From assembly GCF_024300645.1 (NCBI RefSeq), contig NZ_CP101291.1, positions 1,674,001 to 1,738,000 on the forward strand: a stretch of DNA of 64,000 bases. Reading direction: 5' to 3'. Position 1 is the stretch's first letter, and each line of letters opens with the position of its first letter. The notes under the pieces are model-generated. The model saw only the letters and a list, made by a program, of their open reading frames with translations. It had not been told where the DNA came from and did no database searches. This stretch comes from Alteromonas sp. LMIT006 (GTDB lineage Bacteria; Pseudomonadota; Gammaproteobacteria; Enterobacterales; Alteromonadaceae). The translations under genes were made by a program, and so were the position numbers. Below, piece by piece: positions 5,416 through 52,052 of the stretch.

Positions 5416-5440
5416 GCGCCAATCTTGCTAACCGAACCTC

Positions 5441-5468
5441 AAAAAGGCTCAGACTCTGGGCCTTTTTT
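5441..5468 (+). terminator. Rho-independent terminator after the 530-aa lipoprotein
   Basis: AAAAAGGCTCAG, loop ACT, then CTGGGCCTTTTTT: a GC-rich stem with an A tract and a T tract, starting 25 bases after the stop codon. The following gene starts 68 bases later and must have its own promoter or depend on read-through. Confidence 0.8.
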
Positions 5469-5535
5469 GTGGTTGCAACGAATGGTAAACTATTTACAGT
5501 CAAGGATGTCACCCAGGATCCATAAGGAAGACAAG

Positions 5536-7761: not shown

Positions 7762-7941
7762 CCCCCTTTATTCTTGTGATGGCGGCAAGGTGATACTAAT
7801 AAAATAACTTAGAACGAGGTGGTGAGTTTTTGCTACTTAAAATGGGAGAGTTACACTAGGAGTTTTTCTGAGTAGGGCAAAAAGCGATTGAAATACGTTC
7901 CATCAGGTACTTATACTGACATGACTGGTGCGCGGAAGGTG

Positions 7942-7957
7942 TACCACAAATATGGTA
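7942..7957. promoter_or_regulatory. Putative NarL/FixJ-type 7-2-7 operator, copy A
   Basis: TACCACAAATATGGTA is two inverted heptamers, TACCACA and (on the other strand) TACCATA, separated by AA. This is the arrangement known for NarL-type regulators. It ends two bases before a candidate -35 TTGACT, placing its centre about 43 bp before the inferred transcription start, a class II activator position. An identical 16-mer occurs at 12147-12162, also 90 bp before its ATG. Binding by the regulator encoded at 15919 is inferred. Confidence 0.6.
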
Positions 7958-7959
7958 TG

Positions 7960-7986
7960 TTGACTGAATTCAGGTGTGCGTATAGT
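7960..7986 (+). promoter_or_regulatory. Candidate promoter of the first repeat-protein gene
   Basis: TTGACT and TATAGT with a short 15-bp spacer, conserved in copy B. The suboptimal spacing fits an activator-dependent promoter. Confidence 0.45.
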
Positions 7987-8031
7987 GGATAGGGTTCAGG
8001 ACATGTTGTACAAATTTGATGGAGTAATGTC

Positions 8032-10296
8032 ATGTATCCTACCGTTTCATTCAAACGTTCGCTCGTTTACAGCGCAGTATTAACTGCATTGACCGTCCCG
8101 TTTTCCAAAGCAGTATTCGCAGCTGAGTCAATTGATCCAACTAAAAACAGTGCGATCAAACTGATCCAGGTCAATGACCAAACCAAAGACAAAAACCACG
8201 CAACGCTCACTTCAAACGGGCAAGGTGGTATTGTGATCACCACCAAAGACGACAGTGAAATCATTCAAAATGTCTTGACGCAATACGTCAATCGAGGAAC
8301 CTCGGGCGGATTCACGGGCAACATTTTAGACATCACCGTGAACAATGACGACATCAACTCACAAAACACCTTTTATTTGAGTCAAATCGGTGGGTCGTGG
8401 TTGGTTATGAACGTCAATGGTAAAAACAACACATTCACTATTGTCGATTTGGCGGGGGTAGGATATGACCCCGATGGCACTCAGCCAAGTGGGGCAGTGA
8501 CCATCAACGTGGCTGGGGACGACAACACCATTGATATTTCTCCAACGGTCTTGGGTAACATTGCCAAAACCTTACATGTGGACGTGGCCAGTTCGGACCA
8601 AGCCAGTCCCTACAATAATGTGAATGTCATTCATTTAGCGTACACGGATTTTTCTGAAATCACGACCAAGTTAGTCGATGCATCTTATTCATTCATTGAT
8701 GTGGAACAAAAAGATCTGTACTTCACAGATGCAGCAGACACCGAGCTATTGCCCAACATTGTGACTATTGACGTGGTTAATGCCATAGCAACTCGGGTTG
8801 AAATCACACAAAATGGCATCAACAACATCGCGAATGTCGATGTAAAATACGACCAAAATACCATTAATATCACTCAAGACAGTCCTAGTACGCTGGATAA
8901 CAACGTAGTCAACGTCAATGTCAGTGGCTTAGGGAACCGAGTAACCACGACCCAAACGGTCCTGTATCCAGCCGAAGATGCCAGCACCAATGACATTGAT
9001 GTAGATATTGTGCAAGGCTACAACAACATAGTGACCGTGACACAGAACAGTTATGGGCGCATTAATCCAGACTCTACGGCAGACGTCGATATCCACGGCA
9101 GTGGTAACCAAGCCACTATTGATCAGTCTATTGACATTGGTTCATTTGGCACTGACTTTGATTGGGGGGCAAGTCAAGACATCACTTTAAATGTCACTGG
9201 GGATGACAATATATACTCATTAAAGGGATTTTGGCATCATCGCTCGGAGGTTGCGCTGACTGGTCACGGTAATACAGTGACATTAAGCGACACCGCTCAT
9301 ACTACAGGGACGGTCGGCGATATTGACATCACTGGGCATAACAATACGCTTGAGGTTATCGGCAAACAAAGTTCAACCAACTTCTTTGATAAGCTGTATC
9401 AATCGGGGGACGACTCAGTAAACTACAGCTTTACGGTGTTTGGGAACGACAACACCACCACCTTCACCACATTGGGATTTGTGAGTTTGAGTTCTTTGAT
9501 TGATGGTGCAGATAACGATGTTAATTTAAACATCAATAGCTGGTCACATAATGACATCAATAGCGTATTGATTGGTGATGACAATGCGTTAACTTTCAAC
9601 ATTGGCGCCAACCCAAATAACACCTTGTATGGACATTATGGACAGTCTAATGTGACCTCCAAAATCATCGGTCATCGCAACGATGTCACCTTATCTTCCA
9701 CGTTTTTGGCCAGTGATTGGGTAGGTCCAGACAAGAACAACTACGACATTGATGTCTCAGGAAACGACAACAGCCTCGTCGTGCAAGACAATCGCAACGG
9801 CGGGTCAAACTTGGATGTGGATGTCTTGGGACATGCGAATACCATCCAGATTGGCTCACAAGAGACCGGGTTGGATACCACCAAAACCTTTGTGTATGTG
9901 GCTGGCGAACAAAATATCGTCACACTCGATGCGCATGTAAATGACAGTTACATGCATGTGGAGGGTACCGGTAATGATGTGACTATGACCGGGGCTGCCG
10001 TGGCAGATTCCCACTATCGTTCGTTTATCCGTGGCATAGATAATACCGTTGACATTGATGTGACCGGCTTAACGGCCGATGCTTACGTCGATGTCTCAGG
10101 GAATAATAACGTGATGTCGTTTCATCTTGGTGCCGGTTACATCGATTACGATCTGGTGGGTTCCGGATTCGAAGGCAGTGTAAAGACCTTCAACAGTCAA
10201 GCGTATTATCAAACGTTGTCTAAGTTAGGTACGGGCACCATCACAATGATTTCAGATGGTGGGCAAGTGAACATCAGCTCAAACATGGGCGGGTAG
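8032..10296 (+). CDS. Large curlin-like repeat protein 1 (predicted surface fibre subunit or adhesin)
   Basis: A 754-aa exported protein with a Sec signal peptide ending near A-V-F-A-A. From about residue 128 to 695 it holds some 18 copies of a short motif, hydrophobic-x-G-x-x-N-x-hydrophobic (for example VNGKNNTFTI, VSGLGNRVTT, VFGNDNTTTF, VSGNDNSLVV). They are spaced irregularly at about 20-40 residues, many followed by Gln or Asn. This matches the Asn/Gln/Gly logic of curlin (CsgA) repeats, which stack into a beta-solenoid, though the protein is about five times longer than CsgA. The C-terminal 60 residues (L-G-A-G-Y-I-D-Y, L-G-T-G-T-I) are shared with the paralogue at 12237. It has its own promoter and terminator. 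The fibre-subunit role is inferred from the repeats and from the nearby CsgG/CsgF-like genes. Confidence 0.65.
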   Translation: MYPTVSFKRSLVYSAVLTALTVPFSKAVFAAESIDPTKNSAIKLIQVNDQTKDKNHATLTSNGQGGIVITTKDDSEIIQNVLTQYVNRGTSGGFTGNILDITVNNDDINSQNTFYLSQIGGSWLVMNVNGKNNTFTIVDLAGVGYDPDGTQPSGAVTINVAGDDNTIDISPTVLGNIAKTLHVDVASSDQASPYNNVNVIHLAYTDFSEITTKLVDASYSFIDVEQKDLYFTDAADTELLPNIVTIDVVNAIATRVEITQNGINNIANVDVKYDQNTINITQDSPSTLDNNVVNVNVSGLGNRVTTTQTVLYPAEDASTNDIDVDIVQGYNNIVTVTQNSYGRINPDSTADVDIHGSGNQATIDQSIDIGSFGTDFDWGASQDITLNVTGDDNIYSLKGFWHHRSEVALTGHGNTVTLSDTAHTTGTVGDIDITGHNNTLEVIGKQSSTNFFDKLYQSGDDSVNYSFTVFGNDNTTTFTTLGFVSLSSLIDGADNDVNLNINSWSHNDINSVLIGDDNALTFNIGANPNNTLYGHYGQSNVTSKIIGHRNDVTLSSTFLASDWVGPDKNNYDIDVSGNDNSLVVQDNRNGGSNLDVDVLGHANTIQIGSQETGLDTTKTFVYVAGEQNIVTLDAHVNDSYMHVEGTGNDVTMTGAAVADSHYRSFIRGIDNTVDIDVTGLTADAYVDVSGNNNVMSFHLGAGYIDYDLVGSGFEGSVKTFNSQAYYQTLSKLGTGTITMISDGGQVNISSNMGG

Positions 10297-10349
10297 TCTG
10301 GACGCTCATCGAGCATGATGCACTAGAGTCATACCTTACACTTACCATT

Positions 10350-10394
10350 AGGACAGCTTTCGCAAAGGCCAGTAGCGATGCTGTCCTGTTTTTT
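10350..10394 (+). terminator. Terminator of the first repeat-protein gene
   Basis: AGGACAGC (10350-10357) pairs with GCTGTCCT (10380-10387) across a 22-base loop and is followed by six T. The downstream part resembles 32250-32282, beyond the end of the long operon (see the repeat entry there). Confidence 0.65.
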
Positions 10395-10455
10395 CTACGA
10401 TTACCTTAGTTGTTTTAATCACATAAGAATATCTATGATAAGTGTCTTTTTATGT

Positions 10456-11880
10456 TTACTCTTCACACCCTAGTTCGGTTCGAGATTGGGTATCATTGTT
10501 GATGGGACATAACTCAGAAGGTAGGGTATCTACCGTATATCGAGCCAGATTGTCATCGTAAAGCGAGTCGGATAAGAACGCAATTAAGTCTGCGCGTTCT
10601 TGCTCGGTCAAGGATAGAGGCATAAAACGAGGATCTAAATTGTCGTTCGCCACTTGTGGGATCCCGGCGATTTTGTAATCCACGACCTCATCAATACGGC
10701 TAAAGGTGGCCCCATGACCCAATATTGAGGTATCTTTGAGGTTATATAAAGTCGGTACTTTGAAGCGGTAATTGTCCATCGCGACGCCGGTGAATCCGCC
10801 TCGACCGCGTCGCACATCCTCCGGAACCATACCTATGATGTCTCGGTTCCAATCCAAATCCCCAAACCCAATGGCCATAAACAAGTCATCAGCAACGGCC
10901 CCGACCGGCGATGACAGGGCTGGGCCAGTGTGACAACTGACGCATTGCCCTGTACCAAAAAAGACCCGGGCCCCCGCGACCTGTTGGGGGGACATGGCGT
11001 GATTGTCGCCTTGTAGCCAGCGCTGAAAAGGCGCTTGGTTAGCCAATACTGAGCGTTCATAAGCTGCCACCGCTTTTGCAGCTGCCACCGACAACGATGC
11101 ATATCCTTGCGGAAACGCTTCTGCCAATAACGCTGTGTAGGTTGGGTGAGTGTTCAGTAACGAGGTGTCGCTGACATCCAAACGGTGTACACCTGCACCG
11201 GCAATCACTTGTGTTTCCAAGCCGCTTAAGCCAAATTGATTAGCCGCTTTGGGCGTGCCTTCTGGCATCAACTGCTCCACGGGCAGGCCGGCATTCACCA
11301 ACCCATTTTCTTGGTGACCAAACTGTCCATTCCAGGCCATGACTTCTTGGTAGGCAGTGTTTAATACAGTTGGCGAAGCAATGGGCTGTACATCGGCCAG
11401 CAGATCCAGACCATCCGCAACGCGACGGCCTTCACCCGCCATGCCAAAGCCTTCTCCACCTTCCCCAATGCCCTGAGCAACCCCCGCTTTAAAGCCGGCT
11501 TTGGCATGATGGCAGGACGCACAGGAGTAGGTGTTGGTCATCGATGTGATCCCGGCGGTGATGCCGGTTTCATGAAAAATCAGTTTACCCAATGTTATTT
11601 TGGCTTCGGTAATGGGATTTTGGGGATCCGCAGGAATATTGGCATAGTCCGTTTCGGACGGCAGTGCAAAATACGCGACAGTATTATCCGGAGCCGCCTC
11701 TGCCATCAAGGCTTCTAATGCCTGGTAAGATGCGATGACATCCTGATCCAGTCCACTGTTGTCATACCGTGAGGTAGTCGCTGCCGGTTCGGTAGGCGGA
11801 GGGGATGGCTCACTGATTTGCGGGTCTATGCCACAAGCGGAAAGGGAGAGCAGAAGCATCCATGAGAGTAAAGCACGCAT
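10456..11880 (-). CDS. Di-heme cytochrome c peroxidase / MauG-family lipoprotein
   Basis: A 474-aa exported protein with a lipobox (L-S-A-C) in the first 20 residues. Two c-type heme sites are visible: C-A-S-C-H at about residue 120 and C-V-S-C-H at about 313. The spacing and the flanking segments (G-K-L-I-F-H-E before the first, G-A-R-V-F-F-G-T-G before the second, and the later F-K-V-P-T-L-Y-N-L) are those of bacterial di-heme peroxidases and the related MauG oxidases. These act in the periplasm or at the outer membrane, reducing peroxide or oxidising protein residues. It lies between the two repeat-protein genes on the opposite strand. Whether it belongs to the fibre system or is a bystander of a duplication is unclear. 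Confidence 0.85.
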   Translation of the reverse strand: MRALLSWMLLLSLSACGIDPQISEPSPPPTEPAATTSRYDNSGLDQDVIASYQALEALMAEAAPDNTVAYFALPSETDYANIPADPQNPITEAKITLGKLIFHETGITAGITSMTNTYSCASCHHAKAGFKAGVAQGIGEGGEGFGMAGEGRRVADGLDLLADVQPIASPTVLNTAYQEVMAWNGQFGHQENGLVNAGLPVEQLMPEGTPKAANQFGLSGLETQVIAGAGVHRLDVSDTSLLNTHPTYTALLAEAFPQGYASLSVAAAKAVAAYERSVLANQAPFQRWLQGDNHAMSPQQVAGARVFFGTGQCVSCHTGPALSSPVGAVADDLFMAIGFGDLDWNRDIIGMVPEDVRRGRGGFTGVAMDNYRFKVPTLYNLKDTSILGHGATFSRIDEVVDYKIAGIPQVANDNLDPRFMPLSLTEQERADLIAFLSDSLYDDNLARYTVDTLPSELCPINNDTQSRTELGCEE

Positions 11881-12062
11881 AACGTATCCATAATGTCGAA
11901 AAAAGTCGTGAATACACTTTACCTCATCGCGCTTATGATATCGCTACTATAAATATGGTACAGACAGATATGACGAAATGGTTATTGGCGGGTGAGCGAG
12001 CCGGTTGAGCTTGCTTAATCATTTAAGGACTAAGACTTTTTCTTAGATTATCCCAAAATGAT
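11881..12062. other. Intergenic region upstream of copy B
   Basis: The 356-bp gap between the divergent peroxidase and second repeat-protein genes holds the 17-bp hairpin element at 12030-12046 and, from 12063, the duplicated promoter region. The part nearest the peroxidase gene contains AT-rich DNA with a lone TATGGTA heptamer at about 11951; I see no gene in it. Confidence 0.5.
12030..12046 (+). repeat. Hairpin-forming CTAAG/CTTAG element, copy 2
   Basis: CTAAGACTTTTTCTTAG, one mismatch from 3134-3150 and in the same orientation. It forms a 6-bp stem with a five-base pyrimidine loop and lies just upstream of the duplicated promoter block. Confidence 0.4.
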
Positions 12063-12146
12063 TAGGAGTTTTTCCGAGTGGGCTGAAAAGTGATTGAAAT
12101 CGGTTTTATGGGGTACTTATACTGAAAATGTTGGTGCGTTATGCCG

Positions 12147-12162
12147 TACCACAAATATGGTA
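12147..12162. promoter_or_regulatory. Putative NarL/FixJ-type 7-2-7 operator, copy B
   Basis: TACCACAAATATGGTA, identical to copy A and at the same 90-bp distance from the start codon. Confidence 0.6.
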
Positions 12163-12164
12163 TG

Positions 12165-12191
12165 TTGACTGAATTCAGGTATGCGTATAGT
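12165..12191 (+). promoter_or_regulatory. Candidate promoter of the curli-like operon
   Basis: TTGACT, 15-bp spacer, TATAGT, identical in both boxes and spacing to copy A. It would drive the second repeat-protein gene and the genes up to about 22 kb. Confidence 0.45.
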
Positions 12192-12236
12192 GATGTGAGT
12201 TCAGGACATGTTGTACAAATTTGATGGAGTAATACC

Positions 12237-14639
12237 ATGTACCCTACAATCTCATTCAAACGTTCGCTTGTTTACACAGCGGTATTGACCGCGTTGACCG
12301 TTCCGTTTACCAAAGCAGTGTTGGCTGAAGAAGCGGTGGATCCAACCAAAAACTCAGACATTCAGCTGATTCAATCGAATCAATCTAATGTCGAGGATAG
12401 AACTAAAGCCGATAACCTTGCGTTTATTCGCTCAGAAGGTCAAGGCGGCGTGGTGCTTAAAGGCGCGGATGCATCGGGTATCGTGCAACAGATCATGCCG
12501 GAGTTGGTCAACCGAGGCGAGCCATACGATTATTTGTCTAACGTACTCGACCTCACCATCAACAATGACAACGTGAACTCGCAAAATACTTTCTACATCT
12601 CACAGATTGGTGGCTCGTGGTTGGTCATGAATGTGGATGGTGAAAACAATACGGTCAGAATCGCCGACTTAGCGGGTATTGGCTTTGCAAAGGCCAATGC
12701 CAAAGATGCCAGTACCGACGATGCGCAAGCTCCAGAAGAAGCCACCAAAATCAATATCACCGGTGACCATAATGATTTAACCCTAACGCCAAACACAGTG
12801 GGCAACATTGCGCGTAAAATGCAGATCACGATGGATGAAGGACAGGGTCTCAGTCAATATAACGTACTCAATATCAGCTACTCGGATTTCTCTGACATCA
12901 TCACCAATCTCAAAAACGCCTCATACAGCACCATTGATGTGACTCAGACGGATTTCACGGGCGATGTGGATGAGGTGTCAAACAATCCCAATATCGTGTT
13001 CATTGATGTGGTGGATGCAGACAATACTACGGTAGTACTGAATCAAACCGGGTTGGGTAATAACGCGACATTAAACGTGACCAATGATTTTAACACGATT
13101 AATTTAACGCAAAATAATCAGATTGGGGCGCTAAGTAACCAAGCCGATATCAATGTGGATGGGTACAACAATACCGTTACTGCCGAGCAAACGGTGGGAC
13201 AATATGCCTATTTAGATAACAAGATTGACATTGACATTATTAATGGTGATAACAATACCATCTCCGTTATTCAAGATAATGGCAATGTCGATTTTTTTGA
13301 AGGTACTACAGCCACTGTACATGTCTCTGGCTCGGATAATGATATTGGGATTACGCAAACGGCCAATCATTCATATAGCGGTCAGCAACAAATCACGCTT
13401 AAGATCCAAGGTGACGAAAATGATTTTATGATAAATCATGGGTTTGAATGGCTCGATTTAACCGCCTCTGTCAAGGGTGATGGTAACCATCTTACGTTAG
13501 AAAATATCTCGGATAAGAGCTGGGCCGATATATGGGGTTCGCTCAATGTAATGGGCGATTACAATGACCTGAGTGCACGCTTTAATAGTGGCTATGTCAG
13601 TTTTGAACATTTTGACATTTTAGGCGGCGGAAATACCGTAGTATTAGGAGTGGGCGAAGGTGGGATGCATTATGAAAACGTCATCATTGATGGCGTACTG
13701 AACACGCTAAGAATGGATGTTTTTCGTTCATATTCGCATCTAGAAAACCTTTCCATGCTCGGTGAAGAAAACCAGATACACATACATAATATCAATAGCA
13801 ATTTACGACTCAATACCGATATTTTGGGTAATCATAATCAGTTTGATTTGAACATTGAAACATTTGTTGACGATTATTATTGGGGAGGAGACAACCGCAT
13901 CAATACGTCCATCCAAGGCAGTTTAAATGCTGTAGATGTATGGATTGAACAATCCGATGATGTTCAAGATTATTATGACCAAACAATCAATACTACGGTA
14001 AGCGGATTGGCCAACCGAGTCCGTTTACACTCAAGCATGTCTAATTTAAACACTCGCTCTGACCTTTCTTATGATTTGGATCTAAATGGGCATCACAATG
14101 TCGTTCTAGTTGATGATCACAGTGCGAACAATGTCACATTGGATTTTGATGTTCTAGGTAACGATAACCGTATTGAATATACCTCAGATACAGAGCACAG
14201 CGTTGATCAAACCGCAAACATTGACGTCATTGGGGATCACAACCGACTCTTGCTCAACCCATCCATTAGCAACAGCACTTATACCATAACCGGTGATGAT
14301 AATTACCTGAGCATGACAGGCCATGCGGATGAACTTTCGTCCAGTATCATGTCTATCCATGGCAATGATAACACCATTGAGATGGATGTAGCCGGGCTGG
14401 ATGGCGCGGTCAATATCAGCTTCGATGGGGATAACAATGTGATGGGCTTTACGTTAGGCGCGGGGTATTTGGATTACACGTTAACAGGCTCAGACTTTAT
14501 TGGCGCGGTCAAAACCGTTGGTTCAGCCTATTATCAACAGATTGAGCGGTTAGGGACGGGGGTGATTAATATGGAAACTGCTGCGGGCGTCATCAATATT
14601 GCTTCCAACTGTGGCCAAACCTGTGGTAACGCGATTTAA
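12237..14639 (+). CDS. Large curlin-like repeat protein 2 (predicted surface fibre subunit or adhesin)
   Basis: An 800-aa exported paralogue of the 8032 protein. The signal peptide and first 40 residues are nearly the same, the segment S-Q-I-G-G-S-W-L-V-M-N-V is shared, and the last 60 residues align (L-G-A-G-Y-L-D-Y, R-L-G-T-G-V-I-N). Between about residues 135 and 740 I count about 21 copies of hydrophobic-x-G-x-x-N-x-hydrophobic (VDGENNTVRI, ILGGGNTVVL, VLGNDNRIEY, IHGNDNTIEM). Unlike its paralogue it ends with two Cys (N-C-G-Q-T-C-G). It is the first gene of the operon, with the CsgG-like start 15 bases after its stop. Predicted substrate of the CsgG-like pore; the middles of the two paralogues have diverged strongly. 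Confidence 0.65.
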   Translation: MYPTISFKRSLVYTAVLTALTVPFTKAVLAEEAVDPTKNSDIQLIQSNQSNVEDRTKADNLAFIRSEGQGGVVLKGADASGIVQQIMPELVNRGEPYDYLSNVLDLTINNDNVNSQNTFYISQIGGSWLVMNVDGENNTVRIADLAGIGFAKANAKDASTDDAQAPEEATKINITGDHNDLTLTPNTVGNIARKMQITMDEGQGLSQYNVLNISYSDFSDIITNLKNASYSTIDVTQTDFTGDVDEVSNNPNIVFIDVVDADNTTVVLNQTGLGNNATLNVTNDFNTINLTQNNQIGALSNQADINVDGYNNTVTAEQTVGQYAYLDNKIDIDIINGDNNTISVIQDNGNVDFFEGTTATVHVSGSDNDIGITQTANHSYSGQQQITLKIQGDENDFMINHGFEWLDLTASVKGDGNHLTLENISDKSWADIWGSLNVMGDYNDLSARFNSGYVSFEHFDILGGGNTVVLGVGEGGMHYENVIIDGVLNTLRMDVFRSYSHLENLSMLGEENQIHIHNINSNLRLNTDILGNHNQFDLNIETFVDDYYWGGDNRINTSIQGSLNAVDVWIEQSDDVQDYYDQTINTTVSGLANRVRLHSSMSNLNTRSDLSYDLDLNGHHNVVLVDDHSANNVTLDFDVLGNDNRIEYTSDTEHSVDQTANIDVIGDHNRLLLNPSISNSTYTITGDDNYLSMTGHADELSSSIMSIHGNDNTIEMDVAGLDGAVNISFDGDNNVMGFTLGAGYLDYTLTGSDFIGAVKTVGSAYYQQIERLGTGVINMETAAGVINIASNCGQTCGNAI

Positions 14640-14654
14640 TCAAGTTTGACTTGT

Positions 14655-15476
14655 ATGCAACGCAGTTATCATTTGTGGCACATAACGTGCCTGTTGGTTG
14701 TAAGTGTGTTGGCTGGGTGCGCATCCAGCCAGCAGACTAAGCCATCCCATCCACTGACCAGTGTTCCCCCTTTACAAGCCCACAAGGAGTTCGTGGCATC
14801 CGTCAAAACCTTTGGCGGGGACAAGGATGTCTTCACTGTTTCGGTACAAAATTTTGAAGACCTGTCTGGCTCACGCTCCGAGGGAGGGATTTCGACGTCG
14901 GTGGCCGCGTCAGGCAAATTTTTGACCGAGTTTTTGCTCAGCTCCCCCGAGTTGCGCAGCAAGTTTCACGTGTTGAATCGCACCCACCTTAACGCGCTGC
15001 TCACGGAACGCAAGCTGGCTGAGGCCTTTAATGAAGATCGCAAGGCGCGATTGATTGAACAAGCAAACCCAGTATTAAAGGAGATCCTCGCCAATTCACT
15101 GCAACCCAAATACGATTTTCCCGCGCTTGAGCCGGCTGCGTATTTGTTACATGGAGCCGTGATTGGCTATGACAAAGCCGTAGATGAATACGGTCAGGGA
15201 TATGGTTTAATGGGGGCAAATACCAAAGAGAAAACCTCCATTGATCAGCTCTATGTGATGGTGCAACTCATCGACACCAACACAGGCGAAATCGTCAGTG
15301 TGGGAACGGCGACAGAACGCGTCAACAGCGTACTGTCATCCGCTGGTTTTTTTGGTTTGATCAACCCGTATCGAATTTTGGAATTAGAAGGGGGAGGGGT
15401 CAAAAACGATCCCACGACCATCGCGTTTTTTACGGCCTTACAAGCTGCCATTATGGAGATGTTTAACAATGTATAA
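14655..15476 (+). CDS. csgG: CsgG-like curli secretion lipoprotein
   Basis: A 273-aa lipoprotein (lipobox L-A-G-C, Cys22) starting at ATG 14655; an upstream TTG at 14646 is in frame but would misplace the signal. Features of CsgG are present in order: V-S-V-Q-N-F-E-D-L-S-G-S (compare the V-x-L-Q-D-F-E-N-Q-T-G-S start of the CsgG domain), H-V-L-N-R-T-H-L-N-A-L-L-T-E-R-K, A-A-Y-L-L-H-G-A-V-I-G-Y-D and the S-I-D-Q-L-Y-V-M-V-Q-L-I-D-T-N-T-G-E-I strand. CsgG forms the nonameric outer-membrane channel for curli subunits. Length matches E. coli CsgG (277 aa). No CsgE-like gatekeeper is encoded nearby. It overlaps the CsgF-like gene by 8 bases. Confidence 0.85.
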   Translation: MQRSYHLWHITCLLVVSVLAGCASSQQTKPSHPLTSVPPLQAHKEFVASVKTFGGDKDVFTVSVQNFEDLSGSRSEGGISTSVAASGKFLTEFLLSSPELRSKFHVLNRTHLNALLTERKLAEAFNEDRKARLIEQANPVLKEILANSLQPKYDFPALEPAAYLLHGAVIGYDKAVDEYGQGYGLMGANTKEKTSIDQLYVMVQLIDTNTGEIVSVGTATERVNSVLSSAGFFGLINPYRILELEGGGVKNDPTTIAFFTALQAAIMEMFNNV

Positions 15477-15891
15477 ATTATGCCTTCTTTTATTGCTGTG
15501 CTGCAGTGCCTTCGCGCACGCTGAAGCCCAACGATTCAATTTTAACAACCCGACATTTGGCGGGAATCCGTTTGTTGCCAATCACTTATTTAACTTGGCC
15601 AACAAACAGCAGATCCCCGAAAAAAAAGCCGATAACACGCAATCGGAATTGGAGTCCTTCGCGGAACAGATACGACGTCGTACGCTTTCGAGCATTTCCT
15701 CTGCGATTGCTGCTAATGTCAGTGGGTTGAGCATCGATGATCTGACGGACGAGAACGGTGTGATCAAACTCGATGGCATCGAAATCACCTATTATCAAGG
15801 CGAAAACTGTAATATTATCTTAGAACTTGCAGGTGAAAATGACGAAGAAATCGTGCTCGATATCCCTGATTTTTCATGTGGTGGTAACTAA
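15469..15891 (+). CDS. csgF: CsgF-like curli assembly factor
   Basis: A 140-aa protein with a cleavable signal peptide ending near H-A-E-A. The mature N-terminus, Q-R-F-N-F-N-N-P-T-F-G-G-N-P-F, is the diagnostic CsgF start, which in E. coli inserts into the CsgG channel and anchors the nucleator. A helix-rich stretch (L-E-S-F-A-E-Q-I-R-R-R-T-L-S) and a short beta domain follow, as in CsgF (138 aa). Two Cys occur in the C-terminal part (N-C-N-I and F-S-C-G). Its start ATG overlaps the end of the CsgG-like gene, so the two are translationally coupled. It is the clearest family call in the locus. Confidence 0.88.
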   Translation: MYKLCLLLLLCCSAFAHAEAQRFNFNNPTFGGNPFVANHLFNLANKQQIPEKKADNTQSELESFAEQIRRRTLSSISSAIAANVSGLSIDDLTDENGVIKLDGIEITYYQGENCNIILELAGENDEEIVLDIPDFSCGGN

Positions 15892-15918
15892 GCAACTAAG
15901 TAACATAAGGGGGGGATA

Positions 15919-16578
15919 ATGGCCTCCAAACCACCTTATCAGGTCGTTGTGTTAGAAGATAACTCACTGATCTTAGAACGTTTTTGCAACGTCTTGCGAC
16001 AATGGCCCGATGCACAGGCCGTGCATCCATGCTTGACATTGCATGAGGCGCAAAGCGTTTTTGGGCGCCACTCTGTGGACTTGTTGGTAACCGACCTAGT
16101 GTTGCCGGATGGGGACGGGGTCAGTGCCATCACCGAGTGCTTAACCGCCCACCCAGAGGCTCAAGCCATTGTGATCTCAGCCTTGTCCAGCCGCCGTCAG
16201 GTCCTTGATTCATTTCGTGCCGGCGCAGTGGGGTATATTCTCAAAGACGAAGAAGATTATTCCATTATTGAAATCTGCGACCACATCATGCACGGTAAGT
16301 CCATCATGTCACCGTCCATCGCCAGAATGATGCTCACTGAATTGACCCAGTCCAGTGTGGTGCCGCCCGCACCGAGTGACAATCCACTGACCGCCAAAGA
16401 AACCGAAATTCTCTCTCTCATTGGCAAGGGCTACGCCTACAAAGAAGTCGCCCAGTTAAAAGACATTTCAGTGGGGACAGTGCAGGTACACATTCGCCAT
16501 ATCTACAAAAAATTACAAGTGAACAATCGTTCCGAAGCCTTTTATGAAGCCAAAAAAATGGGCCTCATCGATGACTAA
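15919..16578 (+). CDS. NarL/LuxR-family response regulator of the curli-like operon
   Basis: A 219-aa regulator. The receiver domain (residues 8-125) has the acidic pair E-D, the phospho-acceptor D59 in L-V-T-D-L-V-L-P-D-G-D-G, the conserved S-A-L-S and K-D-E. The C-terminal GerE-type HTH (about 155-215) reads L-T-A-K-E-T-E-I-L and V-Q-V-H-I-R-H-I-Y-K-K-L. It has the same overall class as CsgD, but the receiver looks fully phosphorylatable. It is followed by its likely kinase with an 8-base overlap. A strong ribosome site (AAGGGGGG) precedes the start. Predicted to bind the two 7-2-7 dyads upstream of the repeat-protein genes (inference). Confidence 0.88.
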   Translation: MASKPPYQVVVLEDNSLILERFCNVLRQWPDAQAVHPCLTLHEAQSVFGRHSVDLLVTDLVLPDGDGVSAITECLTAHPEAQAIVISALSSRRQVLDSFRAGAVGYILKDEEDYSIIEICDHIMHGKSIMSPSIARMMLTELTQSSVVPPAPSDNPLTAKETEILSLIGKGYAYKEVAQLKDISVGTVQVHIRHIYKKLQVNNRSEAFYEAKKMGLIDD

Positions 16579-18454
16579 GTTCACGCGGTGTGTGTTGCTG
16601 TTTAGCGGATTCGCCATCCTGGCGACGGTCTTCATCATGATACTGCTTGAGCAATACAAAATCCCCGCGGACGCGCTGAGTATCCACAGCGTGCTCGACG
16701 TCGACACCGGTCAAACCTTGTCATTGCCACTGCGCCGGATGAATCACACGGGCGAATCACAACAATATCGGTTCCGTGCTGAACTGCCTAAATCGGTTTT
16801 CTCTGACCACGCGGGGGATGAACCTTGGTATCTGTATCTGCCACGGTTTGAACAAAACATCACGGTTACGGTCAACGGCAAACGCATTTCCGCATCACAC
16901 AACACCTCTGCCTGGCGAGGGCCATTGGTCTTTAATTCGGCGTTTATGCTCATCCCAACCGAACTTGTGTCTCAATCTCAGGTTCAGGTTGAGGTGGTGA
17001 TCCGCACCACTACCTTACCTCCGGTCAGCTTGTATCCCTTGTATATTGGAACCTACTCCCAGTTGGGACCCATTTACACTCTGCAAGTTCTCCTTGAGTA
17101 CGATGTGCGCCTGATCAGTACAGTGTTGCTGTGCATTGTCTGTGTCATGGCCTTGATCGTGTTTGTCAAAACGCCCACGCAACGAGCCTACTTGTGGTTA
17201 GCGTTGGCGTGTGGTTTGTTTTTGCCGATCCGCATCACCAATATCGTGCCGCTTGCGGAAGAGTGGCTGATGTATATCCCTTGGTTGTATTTTTTGCTGC
17301 CATTTGCCGCGCTGTCGATTTTGCATTATGTGCGGTATTTATCGGAAGCCTCTCGGTTTAACATTCCTTTACTTGCCCTGGCGTTGACGACCGTTGTGGG
17401 CGCGTTGTGCGCGGGATTAGGTCTATTGCCACTGCGTCAATCGGTCATCTTATTTGTCTTCCCATGGATCTTGGTGACACTCGCCGGTGCCGTGTATTTG
17501 CTGATCCAGCATGCCCATCGAACGGGGTCCTGGGTCTTTGTGCTGTTACTCACGTGCTTATTGGGGGTATGCATTGGGGTGGCACACGATGTATTGGTGC
17601 TCAATAACCTACTCGATCACGCCTTCATGGTGTCCTATCTGTGCGTTTTCTGCTTAATGATTGCTTTGTTGTTGCAGCTATACTACAAATTGGTCAGTCT
17701 GTTGGATATCGTCAATCATGCCAACGAGCGCTTAGTCGATGAGTTGGCCAAAAAAGAAGCCGCATTGCAACACAGTTATCAAGAACGCCAGGCCTTCGTT
17801 GTGCAACAATGTCTCAATGCTGAACGCGATCGCATCACGGCAGAATTGCACGATGGAGTCGCTGGACATTTAACCTCCATTCTGACCATTGCGAATGCCG
17901 CTGATCCCAAAGCGCATCCAAACCAATCCATCGTGTCTTTAACCAAGTACGCCATCAATGATGTGCGGTTGTTGGTCGATACGTTCTCCAGTGTGGGATC
18001 CGATCCGAATGTACTCTTTGCCATCATCAAAGAGCGCTGTTTTAGTCCATTGGCGAGTGCCAATATCCGTTTGCATTGGGACGTTACGACCATCCCTGAG
18101 CATTTATCCATTGATCCGGCGTTGGGTCTGGATTTGATTCGGATCATGCAAGAAATTTTGAACAATGCCATCAAGCACGGCGCTCCCACTGAGTTGTCGT
18201 GTGTCAGTGACATAGACCAACACACACTGACCATCACGGTGACGAACCAAGGCGGTATCGCACTGGACCACTCACGTTGTGCGTCGCCGGGACACGGATT
18301 ACTCAATATCCGCAAACGCATTGCCAAATTTCCAGCGGGTGCGTTTGCGCTGCTGCCCATCGCGACAGGCGCGCGTGCGGTATTGTCGTTTTCGTTGGTG
18401 GATCGTCCGGCCGAGCCGACGCATCCTCCCACTTCCACTCATTCTGTCACATAA
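16571..18454 (+). CDS. 7TM sensor histidine kinase (DISM-type sensor, HisKA_3)
   Basis: A 627-aa inner-membrane kinase. I choose ATG 16571, which overlaps the regulator stop (ATGACTAA), over an upstream in-frame ATG at 16544. Order: one membrane helix (residues 8-27), a periplasmic beta-sandwich of about 130 residues, seven helices (about 175-385), a coiled coil, then a HisKA_3 H-box (E-R-D-R-I-T-A-E-L-H-D-G, H427) and an HATPase domain with N-box E-I-L-N-N-A-I-K-H-G and G-H-G-L-L-N-I-R-K-R. The 7TMR-DISM architecture with an extracellular domain typically senses carbohydrates or other ligands; the ligand here is unknown. Very probably the partner of the regulator just upstream. Confidence 0.85.
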   Translation: MTKFTRCVLLFSGFAILATVFIMILLEQYKIPADALSIHSVLDVDTGQTLSLPLRRMNHTGESQQYRFRAELPKSVFSDHAGDEPWYLYLPRFEQNITVTVNGKRISASHNTSAWRGPLVFNSAFMLIPTELVSQSQVQVEVVIRTTTLPPVSLYPLYIGTYSQLGPIYTLQVLLEYDVRLISTVLLCIVCVMALIVFVKTPTQRAYLWLALACGLFLPIRITNIVPLAEEWLMYIPWLYFLLPFAALSILHYVRYLSEASRFNIPLLALALTTVVGALCAGLGLLPLRQSVILFVFPWILVTLAGAVYLLIQHAHRTGSWVFVLLLTCLLGVCIGVAHDVLVLNNLLDHAFMVSYLCVFCLMIALLLQLYYKLVSLLDIVNHANERLVDELAKKEAALQHSYQERQAFVVQQCLNAERDRITAELHDGVAGHLTSILTIANAADPKAHPNQSIVSLTKYAINDVRLLVDTFSSVGSDPNVLFAIIKERCFSPLASANIRLHWDVTTIPEHLSIDPALGLDLIRIMQEILNNAIKHGAPTELSCVSDIDQHTLTITVTNQGGIALDHSRCASPGHGLLNIRKRIAKFPAGAFALLPIATGARAVLSFSLVDRPAEPTHPPTSTHSVT

Positions 18455-18465
18455 GGAGACGCATC

Positions 18466-20352
18466 ATGTTGCACAGAACAGTATTGACCATGGCGTTACT
18501 CATCGGCCTCAGCGGGTGTCTGAGTGATTCCGATGATACCCCGCGCATCGATCGCAGCCAAGGCCCCAACCTCACCATCACCACCATTGACGTGGCTAAC
18601 CTGAACTATTATGTACCCGGTGAAACCATTCGCGTGGATTTTGAGCTGGTGGTGCAGGAGTTGGATTACCCCGATGTGGACATTGATTTTTATGTCGTGC
18701 ATGCTCAAGACTCAGCAGGAGAAGGCGAAGAAATCGAGGAAACCCATTATTTGGGGACCAAACGCTTATCCAAGGTCGAAAATGGGTCGGTGATTGCCTC
18801 ATTTGTTGAGACCGTTCCTGACGTGACCATCACCGGCAACTATTGGATCATGGCCGTAGTAGACCCACAAAATACCGTGGAGGAGGCCTTTGAAGACGAC
18901 AATCATCCCAACCTTGAGAATGAAGCCCATACCGAAGGCAATTTTCCGTATGCGATTGTCGATCTCGAGCATACGTTCAAACACGATTTTGCCATTGTCA
19001 ACGCCGCTCTGAGCGAAGAAGTCCTTGTTTTAGATACCCCTGCGGTGCATGCCAACACTGCACTGGGTACCAATAACGCCGACATGCATGGGTACATCGA
19101 TGCGCTGTATTATGGTCAAGAAGTGGCTCAAGCCAAATTGCTGGTGGAAGTCATGATTGATGGGAATTATGAGCCCATCGAGATCTGGGTTAATCAGGTC
19201 GACCAAGCCACCACCTTGGATCAAGAAGGGTATCAACTGTCTAAGCCCATGGATTTTACCTATAACCGAGAAGAGCATATCTTTGGTCTGGATCTGCGCT
19301 TGACGCAATCTCAGATTGAACGCTTGTACGCCTCGTACGACGCCAGTCAGCGCAATACGTTATCAGTGCGATTTGAGGTGGTGGATAACACGGACTACCA
19401 AGAAGAGTTTGATGACAGTAATAATATTCTGGATCTAGAAGTCCCTCTGTATTTCTTTGAAGATGAGACCGAAGCGACTTCTGGTAAGGCTGCCAAAGCG
19501 TACTCCTTTGACAACGGCCAGTTTGACGTTAATAGCGGGTACAGCAATGGGTTTGGGGACGCCTCCAAATTTAAGGTCGGAATTGATTTTGACTCGGACA
19601 TGCAAATCGATTTGCCGACCGGATCGGCGCATTTTGAAGCCGCCGGCGCCATGGATTTATACGTCTTCAACAAAGCCAATAGTATCTTCAGTATCGATGT
19701 GGACAGCAAAGCCTCGGTGACAGGCGAAAACACTGGCGTGTCTGGCGATGTGGTGTTATTCAACAAAACCGTGTACGAGCAATCCATTTGGCGGGATGCG
19801 TATACGTTGGATTTTTCCAAAACTTGGGAAGAAAACAAAACCTTGGTTCAGTCTACGTTCTTCATCGGGCCAGTGCCATTGTCGGTGGAAGCCGGAATCA
19901 GTGGCGAAATGGGAATGGGCGCGAACTTGACCTATGAAGCACTCACGTTGACGGTGACCGGTGACTTATTCAAAGCCAGTTTAGGCGGTGCGGCCAATGG
20001 CGGGATCAACACCGGTGTCGCAAAAGCCGGTATCACCTTGGATTTGACGGTCTTAGAAAACGTATTAGCCATGGAAGCCACCACGGATATGCGCGCCTAT
20101 GACAACAACACCGGTGGGCCAACCATTGATTGGTCGTTTGCCATTGTGGATGACATCAATGCGATTGAAGGCAAGTTTGGTTTATATGCTGAGACCTATG
20201 GTTTGAAATGGTGTAAGAAAAAAATCTTCGGTAAAAAAATCAAATACCCCTGTGGCACCAAAACGTACCATTATGACTATTGGTTCTATCAAACGCCGAG
20301 TATTTTTTCTAAACATTGGACCATTTATAGCGAATCAGGTCGGTTACAATGA
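18466..20352 (+). CDS. Large lipoprotein with CARDB-like domains in the curli-like operon
   Basis: A 628-aa lipoprotein (lipobox L-S-G-C within the first 20 residues). ATG 18466 has AAGGAG eight bases upstream and lies 11 bases after the kinase stop; the longer open frame to 18277 lies inside the kinase gene and is rejected. Residues 28-130 (N-L-T-I-T-T-I-D, Y-Y-V-P-G-E-T-I-R-V, D-P-Q-N-T-V-E-E-A-F-E-D-D-N) resemble a CARDB-type Ig-like domain, and a second one appears to span about 170-330, ending D-D-S-N-N-I-L-D-L. The last 250 residues are beta-rich with Gly and aromatic alternation and end in a basic Cys-containing segment. Probably exposed at the surface; a role in fibre assembly or anchoring is inferred only from position. 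Confidence 0.65.
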   Translation: MLHRTVLTMALLIGLSGCLSDSDDTPRIDRSQGPNLTITTIDVANLNYYVPGETIRVDFELVVQELDYPDVDIDFYVVHAQDSAGEGEEIEETHYLGTKRLSKVENGSVIASFVETVPDVTITGNYWIMAVVDPQNTVEEAFEDDNHPNLENEAHTEGNFPYAIVDLEHTFKHDFAIVNAALSEEVLVLDTPAVHANTALGTNNADMHGYIDALYYGQEVAQAKLLVEVMIDGNYEPIEIWVNQVDQATTLDQEGYQLSKPMDFTYNREEHIFGLDLRLTQSQIERLYASYDASQRNTLSVRFEVVDNTDYQEEFDDSNNILDLEVPLYFFEDETEATSGKAAKAYSFDNGQFDVNSGYSNGFGDASKFKVGIDFDSDMQIDLPTGSAHFEAAGAMDLYVFNKANSIFSIDVDSKASVTGENTGVSGDVVLFNKTVYEQSIWRDAYTLDFSKTWEENKTLVQSTFFIGPVPLSVEAGISGEMGMGANLTYEALTLTVTGDLFKASLGGAANGGINTGVAKAGITLDLTVLENVLAMEATTDMRAYDNNTGGPTIDWSFAIVDDINAIEGKFGLYAETYGLKWCKKKIFGKKIKYPCGTKTYHYDYWFYQTPSIFSKHWTIYSESGRLQ

Positions 20353-22085
20353 GTATGACCTGGCGCCAACGAGCGTCTCTTGCTGTCAGTGCGCTGTGCC
20401 TTGGCGCATTGTCTGCTCACGCTCTGGCCTTGTGTGAACGCACCTTTGCGGTGACCATCGACACGCAAAGCACCTTTGCATTGACGCAACAAACCGACAC
20501 CATGCAGCAATCGGTGCGTTTGTCCATAAGGCCGTTACCCAACACACCGCTGCCAGACGGGCAAACCGGGCAATGGCTTGGGATCCAAGTCGAACCTATT
20601 GCCTCTAGCGGTACCGCTGCGTCTGCGATGGAGCCGTCCATACCGCCTTTTGGTATGTTATTCGATCCGTATGGCGTGATTGTGGACCAGATGTTTTTGC
20701 CTGGGTTATCAGATGCTCAGCGTCAACAAGCCATGGGCTATGCGTACTGGTTGCAGGTGCCACAACACACCACCTCGACGCAGACCCCAACCATACCGGC
20801 CAAAGGCATTCGTTATCAGGATAATAACGGCCAGTTTGAACCCCAATTTATCATGAGCGAACCCACTCAGTTAGCTTATCGCAACACGGGGTATCTGTCG
20901 GTGGATCCGCAATTGGGTCAAGATATTGTAGTGGAGGAGGCACAAGCGTCTTACCAGTTGGATGCGTGTGGGTTTGCGGATTTTACGCAGCACACCTGGC
21001 TCACCTACACCCACCCTGCATCCGCTCAATTGTCATTGCGTGCACAACAGCATGTGCAAGGTAAGGTGATCCCAGCGGATCCAGACACGTTATTGTGGCA
21101 ACTGCCGGATAATCTGCGGTTATGGCGCACTGCGCCGTCAACGCCACTGAGCGAGACGCAACGCAACGCATTGACGCAACAGCTAGAAAAATGGCTCAAC
21201 ACCACCGATTGGTTGAATCAACCCCCTGGGGAACTGAGTGAGGCATTGCGTGCATTTGATGCTGTGCTGGACTATATTCCCGAGTTACTTTTGCACCAAG
21301 GGTGGAGTGACGCACAACAGATGCGTATTATCCATGCCTTGGGATTACTTGACACACCACGGGCACAATCGAGCTTGGTGAGTATGTTGACGCAGGACGC
21401 GCACACCGAGACCAATCAATTTCGTGCCTTACGCGCATTGACGCAAGGTGATACGGCATTATCCGAAGAGGCGGTCCTCGCGTTAATGGCACACACCGAC
21501 GTGGCGTTGCAACGGCAATCCGAGATGGACCACGCGTTATTGTTGCACATTGGTATTTTGTATGACGTACGCCCAAAGACAGCCTTGTCTGCCAAGTTGT
21601 TAAATGGGTTGCACGAAGCGTTGCACGCAGCCCCTGATCACAAGACACAAGCCACATTAATTGCGGCAGTAGGCAATACCGCACACCCAGACAGCGTAAA
21701 AATTCTGGCGCGTTTTCAACACGCTACGGATCCTGCAATCGTCGACAATTTGGCGTTCAGTCTGGGACAGATCCAAGGAGAACAGTCCTTACAGGTATTG
21801 ACGCATTTGCTCAACCGTGAGGAAGTGTTGCACAAAGCCAGTGTGATAGGGGCCTTGCACGCGTTTGATTTGGACACTGGCGCCATGCAAACCATTACCA
21901 CGCTGGCTGAACAGCAGAACGATCATCAGACTCGCCGTGCGGCCATCAAAACCTTGGGGGCCCAAACCCATCGTAAAACGGAAGCCGCGGCGATGTTGCG
22001 CCATCTATTGCAAAATGAGTCCAATAAAGCCAATTTTAAACGGGCCGCCAAAGCGATTGCTGAATTGGAGCGAGAGGGAGGGTAG
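20349..22085 (+). CDS. Exported protein with C-terminal HEAT-like repeats
   Basis: A 578-aa protein with a signal peptide (cleavage near A-H-A-L-A). The N-terminal half is a beta-rich domain with two Cys; from about residue 290 the sequence turns helical with repeated A-L-x-A-L, S-L-G-Q-I, V-I-G-A-L and A-I-K-T-L-G units typical of HEAT repeats, a scaffold for protein binding. Its start overlaps the preceding stop (ATGA), indicating translational coupling and membership of the operon. The last 67 bases, from codon 559 to just past the stop, are repeated perfectly at 32137. Function unknown; a periplasmic adaptor for the lipoprotein or fibre is a reasonable guess. Confidence 0.6.
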   Translation: MSMTWRQRASLAVSALCLGALSAHALALCERTFAVTIDTQSTFALTQQTDTMQQSVRLSIRPLPNTPLPDGQTGQWLGIQVEPIASSGTAASAMEPSIPPFGMLFDPYGVIVDQMFLPGLSDAQRQQAMGYAYWLQVPQHTTSTQTPTIPAKGIRYQDNNGQFEPQFIMSEPTQLAYRNTGYLSVDPQLGQDIVVEEAQASYQLDACGFADFTQHTWLTYTHPASAQLSLRAQQHVQGKVIPADPDTLLWQLPDNLRLWRTAPSTPLSETQRNALTQQLEKWLNTTDWLNQPPGELSEALRAFDAVLDYIPELLLHQGWSDAQQMRIIHALGLLDTPRAQSSLVSMLTQDAHTETNQFRALRALTQGDTALSEEAVLALMAHTDVALQRQSEMDHALLLHIGILYDVRPKTALSAKLLNGLHEALHAAPDHKTQATLIAAVGNTAHPDSVKILARFQHATDPAIVDNLAFSLGQIQGEQSLQVLTHLLNREEVLHKASVIGALHAFDLDTGAMQTITTLAEQQNDHQTRRAAIKTLGAQTHRKTEAAAMLRHLLQNESNKANFKRAAKAIAELEREGG

Positions 22086-22088
22086 CCG
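22022..22088 (+). repeat. 67-bp perfect direct repeat, left copy (3' end of the HEAT gene)
   Basis: Identical over 67 bases to 32137-32203. This copy comprises the last 21 codons of the HEAT-like gene, its TAG stop and three bases more. The two copies bracket a 10,048-bp segment holding only two genes. A small perfect hairpin (GTAAGAA, AAA, TTCTTAC) follows at 22106-22122. Confidence 0.95.
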
Positions 22089-22179
22089 ATGGAAAGACGG
22101 ACATAGTAAGAAAAATTCTTACTGCAATTTTCATAAAAAAATATAAAGATGTATATAACGTGTACCGGACAAGCATATT

Positions 22180-32136: not shown

Positions 32137-32203
32137 CAATAAAGCCAATTTTAAACGGGCCGCCAAAGCGATTGCTGAATTGGAGCGAGAGGGAGGGTAG
32201 CCG
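32137..32203 (+). repeat. 67-bp perfect direct repeat, right copy
   Basis: Identical to 22022-22088. Here it is a stranded 3' gene end beginning 28 bases after the stop of the giant gene; the reading frame it belongs to is not open upstream. A terminator follows 11 bases later, where the original operon presumably ended. Confidence 0.95.
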
Positions 32204-32214
32204 GTGTCGATAAG

Positions 32215-51764: not shown

Positions 51765-51841
51765 GGAGTGGTAGTTCAGTTGGTTAGAATACCGGCCTGT
51801 CACGCCGGGGGTCGCGGGTTCGAGTCCCGTCCACTCCGCCA
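51765..51841 (+). tRNA. tRNA-Asp (GTC), copy 1
   Basis: 77 nt including encoded CCA. Acceptor stem GGAGTGG/CCACTCC, anticodon loop CTGTCAC, TTCGAGT in the T arm. Almost identical to E. coli tRNA-Asp. Confidence 0.98.
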
Positions 51842-51866
51842 TTTTTCATCATTGTTTGCACGCGCT

Positions 51867-51943
51867 GGAGTGGTAGTTCAGTTGGTTAGAATACCGGCCT
51901 GTCACGCCGGGGGTCGCGGGTTCGAGTCCCGTCCACTCCGCCA
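51867..51943 (+). tRNA. tRNA-Asp (GTC), copy 2
   Basis: Sequence identical to copy 1, separated from it by 25 bases. Confidence 0.98.
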
Positions 51944-51975
51944 TGTAAACGACACTTATCTTTTTGATATACTGC

Positions 51976-52052
51976 GGAGTGGTAGTTCAGTTGGTTAGAA
52001 TACCGGCCTGTCACGCCGGGGGTCGCGGGTTCGAGTCCCGTCCACTCCGCCA
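51976..52052 (+). tRNA. tRNA-Asp (GTC), copy 3
   Basis: Sequence identical to copies 1 and 2. The three form one operon behind the promoter at 51693. Confidence 0.98.

Follow-up and report, generated by a model that had tools for sequence, protein, structure and literature searches.

This work concerns a curli-like (type VIII secretion) locus of Alteromonas sp. LMIT006, located at positions 7857-22085 of a 64,000-nucleotide stretch of DNA (contig NZ_CP101291.1, positions 1,674,001 to 1,738,000), here called the window. The source genome is a single contig of 2.53 Mb, and this is the scope of all whole-genome searches. The locus encodes CsgG and CsgF together with two large exported repeat proteins, giant 1 and giant 2, and a two-component system. 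The open reading frames (ORFs) sit where the original prediction placed them and the frames of all locus genes are intact. Export signals and lipoboxes were judged by eye. The features are the following:

7857-8031, plus strand: promoter region of giant 1, delimited by blastn against the giant 2 promoter
8032-10296, plus strand: giant curlin-like protein 1, 754 amino acids (aa)
10456-11880, minus strand: gene for a MauG-type di-haem cytochrome c peroxidase, between the giants (PF03150, 78.5 bits)
12063-12236, plus strand: promoter region of giant 2, a duplicate of the giant 1 promoter
12237-14639, plus strand: giant curlin-like protein 2, 800 aa; opens the run giant 2, csgG, csgF, response regulator, histidine kinase, CARDB, HEAT
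14655-15476, plus strand: csgG, outer-membrane secretion channel lipoprotein (PF03783); first ATG at 14655, ORF listed from a TTG at 14646
15469-15891, plus strand: csgF, with the NPxFGGNP N-terminal core (PF10614)
15919-16578, plus strand: NarL-type response regulator with receiver and LuxR-type helix-turn-helix (HTH) domains (Pfam)
16544-18454, plus strand: sensor histidine kinase with 7TMR-DISM, HisKA_3 and HATPase_c, each below the Pfam cut-off
18466-20352, plus strand: CARDB-type lipoprotein (CARDB below cut-off); first ATG at 18466, ORF listed from an upstream TTG
20349-22085, plus strand: exported HEAT-repeat protein (HEAT_2, 62 bits, above cut-off)

The genes from giant 2 onwards are tightly packed, including the CARDB-like lipoprotein and HEAT-like exported protein that had been placed in such a run. 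The stop codon of giant 2 is followed after 15 nt by the ATG of csgG, csgG and csgF overlap by 8 nt, and 27 nt separate csgF from the regulator gene; regulator and kinase genes overlap by 35 nt, 11 nt lie between kinase and CARDB genes, and CARDB and HEAT genes overlap by 4 nt. The peroxidase gene, absent from the original prediction, splits the two giants on the minus strand, so that the co-directional run is 12237-22085 and giant 1 stands apart as a unit served by a promoter copy of its own. A homologue of this peroxidase (64% identity over 436 residues) is found in another genome (G004), elsewhere in the genome; G004 has no match to the giants.

The CsgG and CsgF identity of the two genes next to the exported repeat proteins is real as judged from their sequences, in agreement with what had been predicted. 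CsgG scores 84 bits with PF03783, above the cut-off, and its residues 9-268 of 270 align to solved CsgG chains (best E 7e-16), which are its only matches among PDB sequences (5 distinct, E <= 0.01). CsgF reaches 52 bits with PF10614, also above the cut-off, matches solved CsgF at E 3e-5, and finds CsgF chains only (4 distinct, E <= 0.1). In the alignments of the window protein with 14 relatives the lipobox Cys of CsgG is conserved in 15/15, and the N-terminal core NPxFGGNP of CsgF is retained, with N, P, F, G and G invariant in 15/15. Identity to these relatives is 23-27% for CsgG and 16-25% for CsgF. The C-terminal tail is missing from the window CsgG, and in a tree of the 15 sequences its branch measures 3.3 substitutions per site versus 0.1-0.7 for the other 14; placing it in the tree was abandoned, the branch being too long and the support around it ranging from 0.00 to 0.73. 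The constriction of CsgG is formed by Y51, N55 and F56, according to PMC9245180. These residues are not kept in the window protein: the ungapped alignment with solved CsgG has G, T and S at the three positions, and matching the STxV motif through a loop shorter by 3 residues gives G and I at N55 and F56, in an alignment read by eye.

No CsgE had been recognised originally, and none was found in the whole genome: PF10627 gave 0 matches, with a positive E. coli control, and a profile of 8 ORFs taken as CsgE by position gave a best E of 0.4, in a stretch with stop codons. As CsgE absence is published for Alphaproteobacteria (PMC3521004), this is not decisive against curli membership.

The two giants are 42% identical to each other. 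Their sizes and many GxxN-type repeats are as predicted: giant 1 contains the motif GxxNx[VILFMAY] 18 times and giant 2 24 times, far above 500 shuffles of each protein (means 2.6 and 3.0, maxima 8 and 9). Counted as GxxN arcs there are 20 in giant 1 and 24 in giant 2, irregularly spaced with medians of 24 and 23; over both proteins 26 of 47 successive spacings are 20-30 residues and the remainder range from 6 to 100. When the genome was searched with the curlin repeat model (Curlin_rpt, PF07012) at E <= 1 two matches were obtained, one per giant, for giant 2 with E 0.0043 (26.1 bits summed with neighbouring repeats, versus a cut-off of 20.7) and for giant 1 with E 0.15, below the cut-off. A phmmer comparison to 29 curlin ORFs, which came from 15 of 16 csgG loci (L095 had none) and were picked by at least three QxGxxN, and to 580 shuffles gave real best E values of 1.8e-5 and 3.6e-5 versus shuffle bests of 0.11 and 0.096. 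By hhalign the giants matched an alignment of seven of the eight same-family CsgA (L099 left out) with 97.7% and E 2.4e-12; 40 column shuffles gave at most 0.8% and the reversed control 0.1%. On these comparisons, which exceed the shuffle controls, degenerate curlins are the most plausible reading of the giants. The statement that CsgA and CsgB are unrecognisable thus applies to a default Pfam scan but not to Curlin_rpt, phmmer and hhalign, and the proposal that something else has replaced them is not supported, since the giants themselves look like the curlins. An ice-binding solenoid was also considered and rejected, T being found at both +4 and +6 in only 3/20 and 1/24 arcs, with no regular TxT face.

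Size does not separate the giants from known curlins. The original prediction took CsgA to be about 150 aa with five repeats, which is true of Enterobacteria only. Two papers describe CsgA of up to 529 aa and 22 repeats (PMC3521004) and homologues with 4 to 62 repeats (PMC10192328), and all eight same-family canonical csgG loci examined carry a CsgA-type ORF of 479-581 aa. Large multi-repeat substrates are therefore not unlike known curli, and the idea of wholly new substrates by size was dropped, long CsgA being usual both in same-family loci and in print.

The difference lies in the glutamines. In seven aligned same-family CsgA, Q-x-G-x-x-N turns alternate with hydrophobic-x-G-x-x-N (VxGxxN-type) turns, and the strand of the hydrophobic turn closes in Q at +9, from 10/12 to 10/10 per protein. 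The giants retain the hydrophobic turn alone, with 18/20 and 23/24 arcs hydrophobic at -2 of GxxN, and the closing Q at +9 follows these hydrophobic turns in 3/18 and 3/23 cases (3/20 and 3/24 over all arcs). Q at -2 is present in 1/20 and 1/24 arcs, the lowest value among 25 comparison ORFs being 12/31. For this comparison every ORF carrying five or more GxxN turns was taken from 17 loci, regardless of Q (the 3.2-kb locus L102 had no such ORF), as selection by at least three QxGxxN favours Q at -2. PMC10192328 credits the glutamine ladder with stabilising the curli solenoid and describes a degenerate class of CsgA which has N/Q to hydrophobic substitutions and arc insertions and is still modelled as a curli solenoid. 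Given this class, the giants are an extreme of a range already described.

A stacked beta-solenoid fold of the giants, as expected originally, is likely on the basis of structure prediction. The AlphaFold2 model of giant 1, built from a two-sequence alignment, shows repeated strands and turns from about residue 97 onward at moderate confidence (predicted local distance difference test, pLDDT, 67.6; predicted template modelling score, pTM, 0.65), but no significant fold match was obtained with it.

Over about 244 bp, extending into the gene, the upstream regions of the two giants share 82% identity (blastn). They contain a 16-bp near-palindrome which is a candidate operator:

7942-7957: TACCACA-AA-TATGGTA, giant 1 promoter
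12147-12162: identical copy, giant 2 promoter
11945-11960: third, differing copy, TACTATA-AA-TATGGTA

The 7-2-7 geometry is that of NarL-family sites. In both promoters the palindrome lies 2 bp upstream of TTGACT-N15-TATAGT (7960 and 7981 for giant 1), which would put it at about -43 if this promoter is used; another promoter-like site, present at corresponding positions of the two duplicates (7888, 12094), lies upstream of the palindrome and may be the real promoter instead. The promoter and terminator scan as a whole was uninformative in itself (24 versus 23.6 expected, and 12 versus 13.6 expected). With at most one mismatch the genome has 3 instances of the palindrome, and every one lies upstream of the giants; two of these are one duplication, and as the pattern was written from those places its match to them is no evidence. 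At two mismatches there are nine further places in the genome, and a backwards control gave 22 per strand versus 9 and 8. The 35 bp of leader before the giant starts (7994-8028, 12199-12233) are identical in the duplicates, the remaining promoter being 82% identical, and control of the giants at the level of this leader is possible.

The linked two-component system is of the NarL type, as originally described, and has its candidate operator at both giant promoters. The regulator matches Response_reg (48.9 bits) and GerE (50.9 bits), both above cut-off, and contains DLLVTDLVLPDGDG, which we take to hold the phospho-acceptor Asp. It scores 100.2 bits with the MadR model, 95.9 with NarL and 48.6 with CsgD, all below the cut-offs of those models. 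The kinase has its domains in the expected order, HisKA_3 at 23.7 bits (cut-off 24), HATPase_c at 21 (26.4) and 7TMR-DISM at 20.5 (29), matches the MadS kinase model at E 1.7e-10, below its cut-off, and contains ERDRITAELHDG, presumably with the H-box.

Homologues of the giants were found in their own genome only, among 60 (giant 1), 394 and 369 genomes, samples which partly overlap and include the source genome. A pattern scan of genome contigs gave 32 candidates, 0 of them confirmed; it used only two N-terminal peptide patterns and is weak. A plasmid home was not supported, giant 2 having no plasmid match (giant 1 was not run). CsgF is present in 1/10 genus genomes, the source genome, and in none of the other 9. 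CsgG-family genes in 5/9 of these other genomes (about 80-90 bits, loci L024-L028) were set aside as relatives, since 0/5 match the window CsgG by phmmer at E <= 0.01. In the sister genome G007, of the same genus, the DNA of the regulator, kinase, CARDB and HEAT genes is about 94% identical; the contig breaks off within the regulator gene, which leaves the csgG side unseen. The HEAT protein of the sister matches at 94%, a level no higher than that of the DNA, and the sister CARDB protein is 98% identical (partial copy), which points to purifying selection on the CARDB gene. Upstream of the locus lies a YbjH-type gene (5425-7761) with homologues in four other genomes of the genus, three of which also have a homologue of the preceding lipoprotein gene (3823-5415); the homologues adjoin genes read as polysaccharide genes, a reading made from ORF starts with no domain search.

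The CARDB-HEAT pair is probably not part of the curli system, judging from where its relatives occur. A scan of genome contigs with the CARDB protein found three loci, in the sister metagenome-assembled genome (MAG), in Motilimonas eburnea (34%) and in a gammaproteobacterial MAG (22% over 176 residues), and in 3/3 the HEAT protein is encoded by the next gene (pairs include 18466-22085 here, L057:12545-16050 and L066:8435-12441). The Motilimonas genome has no CsgG match, which makes the pair a separable module. The HEAT protein of the gammaproteobacterial MAG (L066) also matches Vitellogenin_N (26.7 bits, cut-off 24). A structure model of the CARDB protein was set aside at pLDDT 42.5.

At the 3' end of the HEAT gene a 70-bp stretch (22022-22091) is repeated with 69/70 identity at 32137-32206, about 10 kb downstream. 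The repeats flank the genes for a 313-aa lipoprotein and a 2996-aa Big_9/cadherin/FG-GAP protein, both missing from the sister genome (L055), where one flank is joined directly to the other. The arrangement suggests that the genes were inserted or duplicated once the lineages had split, or else lost in the sister. Elsewhere in the window are three tandem tRNA-Asp (GTC) genes (51765-52052).

Taken as a whole the locus is a new, extreme variant of curli, a known kind of system rather than a new kind. We give a probability of about 0.7 to the reading that it is a strongly diverged curli operon, in which the giants are duplicated and degenerate CsgA-type curlins, exported without CsgE and expressed under control of the linked kinase and regulator through the palindrome. 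Several results weigh against this. Most of the core glutamines, the residues defining the curlin steric zipper, are missing from the giants. The filtered Pfam scan (hmmscan) names no curlin in them even at E 10, a 23-residue unit hidden Markov model (HMM) of 433 curlin turns scored giant 2 at E 0.064 versus E 0.043 for a shuffle (giant 1 unreported), and there is a weak similarity to DUF3060 (E 0.036 and 0.92, below cut-off) as a possible alternative for the C-terminal repeats. In the model of giant 1, 168/754 residues have pLDDT below 50; Foldseek against PDB gave 0/206 matches at E <= 0.001, and the nearest folds, among the best 50 of 206, were autotransporter passengers and tailspikes with TM-scores of at most 0.28. 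The palindrome is not enriched by count in the window (with up to 3 mismatches 9 versus 6.0 expected, 17/100 shuffles reaching 9). Among the genomes searched no second one with giants and csgG/csgF was found, so that conserved linkage cannot be shown.

Part of this evidence would fit giants that leave through CsgG and CsgF and form no amyloid, each standing at the cell surface as an individual aliphatic-core beta-solenoid, an adhesin or matrix protein. The hydrophobic residues at -2 (18/20 and 23/24 arcs, with Q in 1/20 and 1/24 against a comparison minimum of 12/31) and the rarity of Q at +9 (3/20 and 3/24) speak for it, and GxxN spacings of 6 to 100 residues would disturb regular stacking. 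We nevertheless hold it unlikely: loss of Q alone excludes no fibres, degenerate CsgA with N/Q to hydrophobic substitutions being still modelled as a curli solenoid in PMC10192328. Least probable of all is that the giants, as beta-solenoid surface proteins with no relation to curlins, leave the cell by a different route, with csgG and csgF serving something else. The missing curlin call of the filtered scan, the DUF3060 match, the failure of the unit HMM and fold matches only of the broad beta-helix type would agree with it, whereas the genome has no further curlin-repeat match at E <= 1, giant 2 ends 15 nt upstream of csgG, and the giants resemble real CsgA more than the shuffle controls do in phmmer and hhalign; moreover, a Pfam scan of 20 window proteins, which did not extend to the remaining genome, revealed no barrel of the autotransporter or two-partner secretion type. 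A decaying curli remnant under relaxed selection, whose CsgG, CsgF and curlins diverge as non-working proteins, would account for the CsgG branch of 3.3 substitutions per site (0.1-0.7 in the 14 others), for the absence of a CsgE match and of csgF in the other 9 genus genomes, and for a sister HEAT protein no more conserved (94%) than its DNA. It too is very improbable, as all frames are intact and the two duplicated promoters carry the 16-bp box without a difference; the CARDB protein, 98% identical (partial copy) at about 94% DNA identity, argues for purifying selection on its own gene.

If the locus is a diverged curli operon, we propose that the giants would be exported by Sec and held unfolded in the periplasm, then threaded through a CsgG nonamer with its CsgF collar and no CsgE adaptor. 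Outside the cell each would fold into a long beta-solenoid built from some 20-24 repeats of the strand-arc-strand type, and the solenoids would remain at the CsgG-CsgF pore, or polymerise from it, as a fibre of the extracellular matrix. The kinase would respond to a signal, and the regulator linked to it may bind the 16-bp palindrome in the duplicated promoters and so control both giants. The CARDB lipoprotein and HEAT protein would probably be a co-regulated envelope or exopolysaccharide-linked pair outside the secretion machine.

Doubtful, although worth considering, is a branch of type VIII secretion without amyloid, in which a CsgG/CsgF pore that needs no CsgE and has lost the usual constriction residues would export giant aliphatic-core beta-solenoids devoid of the glutamine ladder, switched on by its own phospho-relay acting via the 7-2-7 palindrome. 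If this were true, curli-type export and amyloid chemistry would come apart. Curli being the reference functional amyloid, an operon which keeps CsgG and CsgF, has near-completely lost one of the two glutamine turns in both curlins and has neither CsgE nor the constriction residues would test what export needs as opposed to amyloid assembly, and the linked kinase, regulator and candidate operator are a directly testable regulatory circuit.

In the open-access literature searched no curli locus in Glaciecola was found, most subscription journals lying outside the search, and among the matches listed there was no operon-borne kinase-regulator pair with csgG. With the csgBAEFG-type curli of Alteromonadaceae the locus shares CsgG, CsgF, long exported GxxN curlins and co-directional genes. 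It differs in lacking both a CsgE match and a separate short CsgB, in its two giants (754 and 800 aa), in a CsgG and a CsgF only 23-27% and 16-25% identical to the 14 relatives, and in the two-component system within the operon. The degenerate class of CsgA, compared by its description in PMC10192328, has in common with the giants the change of Q/N columns to hydrophobics, arc insertions and repeats of more than 23 residues; in the giants the loss is near-complete for one turn type and extends over the whole chain of 754-800 aa. CsgD-controlled curli likewise have a LuxR-type HTH regulator beside the secretion genes, whereas the regulator described here has a full receiver domain and an adjoining kinase gene, and scores higher with MadR and NarL than with CsgD.

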